Shown here piece by piece: positions 10,510 through 12,669 of a stretch of 13,262 nucleotides of DNA; the stretch's first letter is position 1, and the number at the start of each line of letters is the position of its first letter. Origin of the DNA: Halobacteriales archaeon (GTDB lineage Archaea; Thermoplasmatota; SW-10-69-26; JACQPN01; JAIVGT01); the NCBI GenBank assembly GCA_020201485.1, contig JAIVGT010000005.1, positions 1 through 13,262 on the forward strand, written 5' to 3'. The translations under genes and the position numbers were made by a program. The notes beneath the pieces were generated by a model, which was not told the origin of the DNA, searched no databases, and saw only the letters and a list, made by a program, of their open reading frames with translations.

Positions 10510-11073
10510 TCAGGCCCAGCCCGGGGTGTGCGGCTCGGGCACGGGGGCCGCGGGAGCCGGCGAACTGCTGAACACCGGGGCGAAGGCCGCGTCCTGGGCG
10601 AGCGGCTCGACCGGGATCTTCACGTTCAGGGGGATGAAGAGCTGGCAGTAGCGCCCGGCGCGGCGCTCGGCGACCAGGCCCATCTGGACCAGGCGGTCGA
10701 CGTGCCAGTTCACCGTCGTGCGCGGGATGCTGAGCAGGCGCGCCAGCTCCTTGCGGTGGATCATGGGCTGCCGGGCCACGATCTCCAGGATCTGCTTCGT
10801 GCGCTCGCCGCGGTTCGCCGCCACGAGCTTCTGCTGGTCCTGGCTCAGGGCCTCGCTGCGCTTGAAGTAGCGGGCGCGGTTGCCGTCGCGCATGGGCACG
10901 ATGAGCCCGTTGCGCTCCAGGATCTTGAGGTGGTAAGCCGCGGTCGGGTGCGAGATGCTGAGCATGCTCGCGATGTCCTGGATGCTCGCCCCGGGGTTCT
11001 CCGCCACGCGCAGGAACACGAGGTGGCGGGTGTTGTTCATGAAGACCGAGCGTTCGTCGTTGCGCGCGTACAT
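10510..11073 (-). CDS. Tandem winged-helix transcriptional regulator (wHTH-3)
   Basis: This 187-residue protein has two winged-helix domains: the first (about 12-75) with GASIQDIASMLSISHP and TAAYHLKILERNGLIV plus a wing DGNRARYFK, the second (about 90-150) with IHRKELARLLSIPRT and TVNWHVDRLVQMGLVA plus a wing AGRYCQLFIP. A Pro/Ala-rich tail (162-187) follows. It is the most divergent of the three regulators and the most typical of the archaeal two-wHTH family. ATG 11073 is supported by a Shine-Dalgarno GGGAGG eight bases upstream; an internal ATG at 11040 is an alternative. A strong TATA element near 11201 would give a leader of about 100 bases, unlike the leaderless genes around it. Repeated GTGAC motifs lie between TATA and start, suggesting operator control. 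It faces away from the hydrophobic-protein gene across 620 bp and may control it. Confidence 0.9.
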   Translation of the reverse strand: MYARNDERSVFMNNTRHLVFLRVAENPGASIQDIASMLSISHPTAAYHLKILERNGLIVPMRDGNRARYFKRSEALSQDQQKLVAANRGERTKQILEIVARQPMIHRKELARLLSIPRTTVNWHVDRLVQMGLVAERRAGRYCQLFIPLNVKIPVEPLAQDAAFAPVFSSSPAPAAPVPEPHTPGWA

Positions 11074-11501: not shown

Positions 11502-11517
11502 GGAAACCGTTAATTAT
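11502..11517 (+). promoter_or_regulatory. BRE plus TATA box of the hydrophobic-protein gene
   Basis: GGAAACCG directly followed by TTAATTAT (11510-11517) is the best archaeal BRE/TATA pair in the window. Transcription would start near 11541, giving a leader of about 150 bases before ATG 11694. Confidence 0.65.
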
Positions 11518-11680: not shown

Positions 11681-11685
11681 GGAGG
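11681..11685 (+). promoter_or_regulatory. Shine-Dalgarno site of the hydrophobic-protein gene
   Basis: GGAGG lies eight bases before ATG 11694 within the purine run AAAGGACGGAGGAAA. It supports this start over the in-frame ATG at 11610, which would add 28 Arg-rich residues before the signal peptide. Confidence 0.75.
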
Positions 11686-11693
11686 AAACCCAC

Positions 11694-12602
11694 ATGCAAA
11701 ACAAGTACAACGCGGCCGCCATGGTCCTGGTCATGATGACCGCGACCATCGGCATCGCCACGGTGAACGGAGCAGCCCTGACGGACGCTATCGAGGAGAT
11801 CGCTGCCTTCGCGCAGGGATCTGTCGATTCTGCCCTGCTGTTCACGAGCCAGCTCACGAGCGACATCGCCTTCAAGGTCGGCCTCATCACGGCCCTCGTC
11901 ACCACCCTGACCTCGAACCTCGCAGGCCAGGTCGTGGCGGCGGTCGCGCTCGCGGCCACCATCGTGACCAACCTCATGGCGACCCTGAACGACGTCATCG
12001 CCCTGGAGCTGAACGCGCTCCTGCAGGCGACGGTGCTCATCCAGGTCATCGTGAGCAACCTGATCTTCCTGAAGACGAGCCTTGAGGCGATCCTGCTCGG
12101 CGCGCTGAACGCCATCGTCACCATCGTGACGGGCATGGTCAGCAGCGTCAACCTGACCCTGAACGTCAGCGCGGCCGTGACCGCGCTCCTGGCGGCGACG
12201 ACGGCGGCGACCGCGACCCTGGCCCAGACGATCAGCGTGGCGGCCACCGAGGCCGTCAACGCGACGCTGGCCGTGGTGACGCAGGTCATCGCGTTCGTCA
12301 ACGCCCTCATCGGCTTGGTGAGCAGCTTCGCGGCCCAGGTGCTGACGACCATCAGCTCGGCGGTCACCCTGATCGCCGGCGTCGTCGGCTCGGGCAGCTT
12401 GACCGCGGTCGCGCAGGTCATCACGGGCCTGAACGGCGCCGTGCAGGCCATGGTCGGCGCTGGCGTCAACATCGCCGGCAGCATCGACATCGTGACCATC
12501 GTCGTGGCGGCCGTGACGGCCATCCTGGCGCTGCTCATCACCGTCGTGCAGGAGAAGCAGGCCGCCATCACGGCCTTCCTGACGGTGGTCGTGCAGGCCT
12601 AA
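11694..12602 (+). CDS. Exported, extremely Ala/Val/Thr/Leu/Ile-rich protein of unknown function
   Basis: The 302-residue product begins with a signal-peptide-like segment (MQNKYNAAAMVLVMMTATIG, then a possible cleavage region near VNGAA at 24-28). The rest is low in complexity: by hand count Ala is about 20%, Val 15%, Leu 13%, Thr 12% and Ile 9%, together about 69%. There is no Arg, Pro, Cys, His or Trp, one Tyr (residue 5), four Lys and eleven Asp/Glu. Asn recurs, often before Leu or Ala, at irregular steps of about 14-18 residues in the middle of the protein. No Pro-containing turns or charged loops separate membrane spans, so a normal multispanning transporter is unlikely; an amphipathic helical or beta-rich envelope, filament, granule-coating or pore-forming protein are all possible. 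I recognise no family. It has a strong TATA, a long structured leader, a good Shine-Dalgarno site and a strong terminator, which suggest abundant, regulated expression. Confidence 0.85.
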   Translation: MQNKYNAAAMVLVMMTATIGIATVNGAALTDAIEEIAAFAQGSVDSALLFTSQLTSDIAFKVGLITALVTTLTSNLAGQVVAAVALAATIVTNLMATLNDVIALELNALLQATVLIQVIVSNLIFLKTSLEAILLGALNAIVTIVTGMVSSVNLTLNVSAAVTALLAATTAATATLAQTISVAATEAVNATLAVVTQVIAFVNALIGLVSSFAAQVLTTISSAVTLIAGVVGSGSLTAVAQVITGLNGAVQAMVGAGVNIAGSIDIVTIVVAAVTAILALLITVVQEKQAAITAFLTVVVQA

Positions 12603-12622
12603 GCGGGCAAGGAACGCGAACG

Positions 12623-12669
12623 TGGGCGGGCGGAACGCAGCCCGCCCGCCCATCTCTTTCTTCTCCTCC
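12623..12669 (+). terminator. Hairpin plus pyrimidine-tract terminator
   Basis: TGGGCGGGCGG (12623-12633) pairs perfectly with CCGCCCGCCCA (12642-12652) across an 8-base loop, and TCTCTTTCTTCTCC follows at once. It begins 20 bases after the stop of the hydrophobic-protein gene and is the strongest terminator-like structure in the window. Confidence 0.75.

Follow-up and report, generated by a model that had tools for sequence, protein, structure and literature searches.

Hydrophobic or amphipathic helices with structural roles occur in phasins, type IV pilins and gas-vesicle proteins. Perilipins, alpha-synuclein and apolipoproteins are built of 11-mer repeats, i.e., with a period of 3.67 residues. 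In the excerpts of the two reports drawn on here, the giant helix of perilipin 4 is long, rich in Thr and Val and poor in aromatics (0.6%), and forms a stable layer on oil; its 11-mer repeats are well conserved, and charged residues matter for its targeting (PMC5889406; PMC8064757). The straight helix has a period of 3.63 residues, and 18/5 is a named periodicity of coiled coils, where it is a way to spread a four-residue insertion over heptads (excerpt of PMC4786415).

The protein described below, P0001, comes from an archaeal lineage on which little was found in print; it is encoded in the window, i.e., the whole stretch of DNA analysed (13,262 nucleotides). Its closest working analogue would be the perilipin 4 helix: both are rich in Thr and Val with few aromatics (8 of 302 residues in P0001), and P0001 is likewise predicted to form a very long, weakly amphipathic helix, so far as the excerpts allow the comparison (PMC5889406; PMC8064757). 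By analogy, an extracellular rod that coats or packs is proposed. Unlike perilipin 4, P0001 carries an export signal, is almost uncharged and shows no convincing repeat in its sequence, and its period of 3.600 (bootstrap 95% 3.592-3.608) differs from that of the 11-mer proteins. It shares the 18-residue, five-turn periodicity with the 18/5 coiled coils as presented in the excerpt (PMC4786415), but stays in phase for ~270 residues, lacks charged flanks and has an odd/even component in addition. P0001 also differs from phasins, type IV pilins and gas-vesicle proteins in that no Pfam or NCBIfam family, the models for these three included, matched it at E<=1; a confident match of this kind would have refuted the preliminary description.

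A gene of unusual composition and its surroundings

P0001 consists of A61 V45 L39 T37 I27 S18 G16 N15 Q14 M7 F7 E6 D5 K4 Y1, followed by a stop codon. The oddity of this composition, claimed earlier, was confirmed: A, V, L, T and I make up 69.2% of the chain, C, H, P, R and W are absent, and the charged residues are the listed E, D and K only (14 of 274 in the mature chain, residues 29-302). As a background, 40 sampled stretches were scanned for genes of at least 100 aa with a GC-frame script, which predicted 285 (89 in the same genome and 196 in four relatives), and P0001 lay outside their range in the A+V+L+T+I fraction (0.692 vs a maximum of 0.581), in R+P (0 vs a minimum of 0.047) and in R, K, D, E, H, P, C and W taken together (0.050 vs a minimum of 0.142). 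The mean hydropathy (GRAVY) of the whole chain was less exceptional (1.32 vs a maximum of 1.25). The lowest of the 285 sampled genes in the R, K, D, E, H, P, C, W fraction codes for an exported-looking DUF1102 protein of the same genome (L028:437-1006, contig C1). In a wider sample of 236 genes from the same genome and 397 from relatives, 198 of them with a signal-like start by an in-house rule, four proteins passed a filter that selects mature chains rich in Ala and poor in R+P, P0004 (see below) among these, and a periodicity like that of P0001 was absent from all four.

The stretch 11694-12602 is a real gene, as the preliminary description had it: the 302-codon frame is intact, its GC content by codon position (0.607/0.436/0.957) carries the same signature as the neighbouring genes, and third-position GC stays at 0.90-0.99 in each third of the gene, a coding-type pattern throughout. 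The overlapping minus-strand ORFs do not show this signature in the right order. An ordinary annotation would read “hypothetical secreted protein”.

Of the flanking signals noted earlier, a Shine-Dalgarno site and a terminator-like hairpin were likewise found (Table 1), and a long leader is probable. The TATA-like box TTAATTAT is the sole match in the window at <=1 mismatch, any match being found in 4 of 200 shuffles; it is preceded by GGAAACC, which we take to be BRE-like. The length of the leader inferred from this box is ~150 nt, and an equal or better fold was obtained for 1 of 200 shuffles; the Rfam matches for the P0001 region were limited to two, both sub-threshold and both on the minus strand within the gene (E ~0.5). 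The terminator-like hairpin, situated between convergent genes, comprises two nested sites against a shuffle mean of 0.7, and its folding is equalled or bettered by 3 of 200 shuffles.

The divergent regulator belongs to a large expansion in the class, with 21 matches in the same genome, while each of six class relatives has 7 to 30; hence, its adjacency to P0001 says little. The convergent partial gene had no match in Pfam or in the six class relatives; N-x-S/T sequons occur in it.

Table 1. Features at and around the P0001 locus (positions in the window)
Feature	Positions	Strand	Basis
Double winged-helix regulator, divergent, one of many paralogues	10510..11073	-	Pfam
TATA-like box TTAATTAT, preceded by GGAAACC	11510..11517	+	Sequence
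Shine-Dalgarno GGAGG, 8 nt 5' of ATG	11681..11685	+	Sequence
A/V/L/T/I-rich protein P0001, predicted to be exported, 302 aa	11694..12602	+	Translation, composition, GC by codon position
Signal-peptide-like N-terminus, residues 1-28; probable cleavage near GAA/LTD	11694..11777	+	By eye
Block common to paralogues, residues 31-109	11784..12020	+	32/79 identical in P0002, 38/79 in the C391 copy
Extension, residues 110-302, continues hydrophobic register	12021..12599	+	Periodicity; shuffles
Membrane-span-like segment, residues 266-284	12489..12545	+	Insertion score, Kyte-Doolittle mean
Terminator-like hairpin with pyrimidine-rich tail	12622..12653	+	Folding, shuffles
Partial gene, convergent, runs off contig end	12718..13260	-	GC by codon position

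Relatives within and beyond the source genome

A search of its own genome with P0001 revealed two further places, on contigs C270 (E 5.6e-7) and C391 (E 2.8e-13), which were beyond the reach of the preliminary description. The first encodes P0002, a protein of 139 aa, to which residues 31-109 of P0001 align without gaps (shuffle z 16.8, reached by 0 of 1000). Besides this 79-residue block, the two proteins have in common the same hydrophobic phases and a signal peptide recognized by eye; the signal-like start claimed for P0001 is supported, and it is clearer in P0002, with ALA/D near the corresponding place. P0002 differs in being short, in containing more Gly and Asp and in a C-terminal two-Cys tail, whereas P0001 has no Cys and carries a 193-residue extension. 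The C391 copy (locus L002:695-1041) shares the two-Cys motif with P0002 (z 15.4, 0 of 1000 shuffles); since no signal peptide precedes it and its block and Cys tail lie in different frames, this copy is decayed or misassembled. The gene contexts of P0002 and the C391 copy differ, by eye, from that of P0001.

P0004 (189 aa, contig C8, L035:691-1260, minus strand) is Ala-rich, exported by eye, and also ends in a two-Cys tail, which resembles those of P0002 (5 of 1000 shuffles) and of the C391 copy (1 of 1000). The Cys tail alone makes kinship of P0004 with P0002 suggestive: similarity of its body to P0002 is not measurable (199 of 1000 shuffles), and kinship with P0001 is unsupported (163 of 500). 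The strong matches to P0004 in alignment-based searches arose by construction, P0004 being a row of the query alignment. An exported Ala-rich protein with several Cys near C162:11325-11843 (L071, ~1500) was matched at E 0.0068, with no clear kinship.

For the extension, no sequence relative was found. Internal repeats were not convincing at the sequence level either, the similarity of the N-terminal block to the extension being reached by 104 of 1000 shuffles, and that between the halves of the extension by 27 of 1000; DNA self-matches of 57-65% over longer stretches (best E 8.5e-10) were put down to composition and periodicity.

Outside the source genome, P0001 had no match at E<=0.01 in six other genomes of the class, four of which reach 90% completeness or more and carry no more than 5% contamination; no match at this level came from 389 sampled genomes of the phylum either, the class included (in one phylum-wide alignment search, scoring was limited to 8 candidates in any genome). 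When P0002 was the query, one weak match each (E 0.05-0.12) came from three of the six class relatives and was judged unrelated on reading; among the weak genome matches as a whole, L005, L006, L007 and L010 (E 0.05-0.12) and L069, L070 and L072-L074 (E 0.0017-3.6) were judged by eye to be unrelated or in the wrong frame. In a set of 5.8 billion proteins, whole P0001 had no match among the 8000 scored candidates sharing most words with it, and residues 26-115 had none at E<=10 among 1368 candidates; the record of P0001 itself was likewise unmatched in this set, which seems to be without it. P0002 retrieved its own record only (530 candidates). Exact P0001 peptides had no match in genome contigs, a search that reaches close relatives only; collections of plasmids, phages and viral contigs contained no accepted relative, and no solved chain in the PDB was matched by sequence. 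The matches of phrog_33643 to 39 residues of P0002 (E 0.0082) and of one NCBIfam model to P0004 (E 0.3, and 9.7 bits where the cut-off is 800) were treated as chance. Literature and family searches returned no description of such a protein. As far as searched, then, P0001 appears to be an orphan with relatives in the same genome only; given its biased composition, the failure of sequence searches to find others says less than it normally would.

The hydrophobic register

The part of P0001 that would surprise a specialist is its hydrophobic register, measured on mature residues 29-302 with the Kyte-Doolittle scale. The spectrum contains two sharp lines, at 3.600 residues (power 19.1) and at 2.0 residues (power 31.9); elsewhere, the power was 1.9 at 3.5, 2.9 at 3.63 and 2.9 at 11/3, so an 11-residue (3.67) periodicity is absent. 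P0001 was shuffled over its full length or inside blocks of 9, 18 or 36 residues, and none of 4000 shuffles reached either line on the Kyte-Doolittle or Eisenberg scale; with FILVM scored in binary fashion, the 2.0 line was reached by 1 of 4000 full-length shuffles, and none did so in the remaining cases, the 3.6 line included. F, I, L, V or M occupy 75 of 137 even positions of the mature chain vs 40 of 137 odd ones. Taken over the whole chain, the 3.6 and 2.0 lines of P0001 (17.0 and 25.7) exceed the maxima of the 285 background genes (11.1 and 9.5), and jointly the two lines account for 26% of the hydrophobicity variance, no more.

Both lines keep their phase along the chain: that of the 3.6 line is -36, -11 and -31 degrees in the three thirds, and that of the 2.0 line is kept too. 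In half-overlapping 36-residue windows, the 3.6 phase ranges from -20 to 92 degrees, drifting near residues 217-270 (15 and -20 degrees), and the 2.0 line has the same sign in all such windows from 19 to 288. In the blocks of P0001 and its two paralogues, aligned, the 3.6 phases are -58, -38 and -54 degrees and the sign of the 2.0 line is the same, with weaker power in P0002 (4.0 and 2.9) and in the C391 copy (4.5 and 2.4). P0004 is without the 2.0 line (power 0.1).

Together, the two lines constitute an 18-residue, five-turn pattern, since both periods divide 18. When residues were grouped by modulus, F was 35.9 for 2, 12.2 for 4, 7.8 for 6 and 6.0 for 18, against shuffle maxima of 4.5 (95%) and 6.6 (99%); modulus 18 passes the former level and fails the latter, and therefore the 18-residue unit rests more on the two lines than on this test. 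The value for modulus 6 was put down to the odd/even component contained in it: the power at 6.0 is 2.5 vs 132 at 3.6 (raw units), so the six-residue periodicity of left-handed (hexapeptide) beta-helices is absent. In a register table of 18 columns, the hydrophobic columns 7, 11, 15, 0 and 4 form one stripe centred at 20 degrees and flanked by columns 1 and 3, and the polar columns 2, 6, 10, 12, 14 and 16 lie mostly opposite.

At the DNA level, the signal is carried by second codon positions (T: 18.4 and 19.4) and hardly by third positions (2.1-2.5), which makes selection at the protein level the simplest cause of the register; a DNA-level origin of the odd/even pattern is unlikely, third positions giving 2.2-2.5.

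Structural readings of the register

The reading tentatively preferred here is that P0001 is an exported protein folding into a straight, largely unbroken amphipathic helix, with residues 266-284 perhaps acting as a tether. The helix would cover a lipid or other hydrophobic surface, or line up laterally with further copies of itself. Export would proceed via the Sec-type signal peptide. The mature 274 residues would then fold mostly into a continuous straight rod, up to ~40 nm long if unbroken, with a hydrophobic stripe of V, L and I running parallel to the helix axis and with small residues and polar ones without charge (A, S, T, N, Q) on the opposite side. Outside the cell membrane, the rod could lie flat against such a surface, or join other copies in a protein layer, and residues 266-284 may anchor it in the membrane. 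A rod rather than loops is suggested because a register held through 274 residues should mean few odd-length loops; the period of 3.600 excludes the heptad (3.5) and the hendecad (3.67) and adjoins the 3.63 of the straight helix, hence the straight-helix reading. The absence of Pro, the scarcity of charges and the retention of both phases by the paralogue blocks at the identities listed in Table 1 would also count in its favour.

Prediction of the monomer structure, a check proposed in the preliminary description, did yield an all-helical model (AlphaFold2, three-row alignment; longest helix 157-231), but its confidence is very low (pLDDT 43.2, pTM 0.29), so the model is a weak hint and does not predict the helix firmly. 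Measured locally, the helical moment is modest (0.07-0.40 per 18 residues), strand formation is favoured by V, T and I, which make up 36% of the chain, the rod may be interrupted at two places rich in Gly (229-234 and 255-262), and no conservation outside the source genome appears to support a function. Furthermore, the odd/even line is stronger than the 3.6 line, which is unexpected for a simple amphipathic helix. It may be read as i+4 ridges alternating in polarity around the helix or, alternatively, as a true strand-like alternation; the former is favoured because the hydrophobicity correlation is -0.09 at lag 2 and +0.21 at lag 4. The earlier idea of a self-assembling or surface-coating protein is compatible with the lack of a family match and is supported by the in-phase code, with assembly and lipid binding themselves presumed. 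If true, P0001 would be an extracellular counterpart of the giant amphipathic helices of lipid droplets, almost chargeless and with a commensurate 18-residue code. It offers a clean sequence with a testable prediction (a straight stripe and a flat layer), and the register, in phase and measurable, could serve as a signature for finding such proteins where composition defeats sequence comparison.

The segment 266-284 bears on an unlikely alternative, in which P0001 would be a polytopic membrane protein or an oligomeric pore of weakly hydrophobic helices whose periodic polar residues line a channel or mediate helix-helix contacts. The high GRAVY, several 19-residue windows above 1.6 and a mean Eisenberg H of 0.25-0.74 per 18 residues speak for it, and the segment, which the preliminary description does not mention, looks hydrophobic enough for a membrane span (Kyte-Doolittle mean 2.92; lowest 19-residue insertion score on an approximate scale, -3.6). 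It is, however, seemingly the only such stretch of P0001: the insertion score falls below zero only around it, the next best value being +0.7 at 80-98; the polar residues follow the helix period and are not clustered in loops, and the register would need to survive every loop. The in-phase hydrophobic code fits a regular rod better than a transporter or a globular enzyme, in line with the early view that P0001 is not an ordinary transporter.

Less probable still, P0001 could be a straight coiled-coil or bundle fibre of the 18/5 type, serving in the envelope as a spacer or stalk with no lipid role. The periodicity is in phase as such a fibre would have it, and the core-like columns 7, 11, 15, 0 and 4 are all hydrophobic (mean Kyte-Doolittle value 2.24-3.83), but coiled-coil stalks normally carry charged flanks, for which the 14 charged residues in 274 are too few a match, and no solved chain resembles P0001 in sequence.

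The strength of the odd/even line, never reached in the 4000 shuffles and constant in sign from 19 to 288, would find its direct explanation in a beta-type assembly, either a beta-solenoid whose coils span 18 residues each or a fibre of the amyloid kind, the alternation of F, I, L, V and M between even and odd positions placing the hydrophobics inside; the abundance of V, T and I agrees with this. Such an assembly is nevertheless improbable in view of the lag correlations given above and of the spacing (2, 4, 4, 4, 4) of the five most hydrophobic register columns (1, 3, 7, 11, 15); inspection by eye shows no column set aside for turns of Gly, Asn or Asp, and the low-confidence AlphaFold2 model contains no strand. 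Eighteen is the shortest length that repeats the patterns of both the alpha-helix (five turns of 3.6) and the beta-strand (nine pairs), and P0001 keeps both for ~270 residues. A more speculative and slightly less credible notion is, accordingly, that two structural codes are present at once, in a material protein whose helix layer could convert to beta sheet or in an i+4-ridge helix forming a new flat lattice.

It is very improbable that P0001 is a young, fast-turning gene with no settled function, i.e., one of the paralogues that, after loss of the Cys tail, drifted through low-complexity expansion: the confinement of its relatives to the source genome and the decayed or misassembled C391 copy are in keeping with it, but drift would blur a register that is in phase to residue 302, and the coding-type GC persists in each third of the gene.
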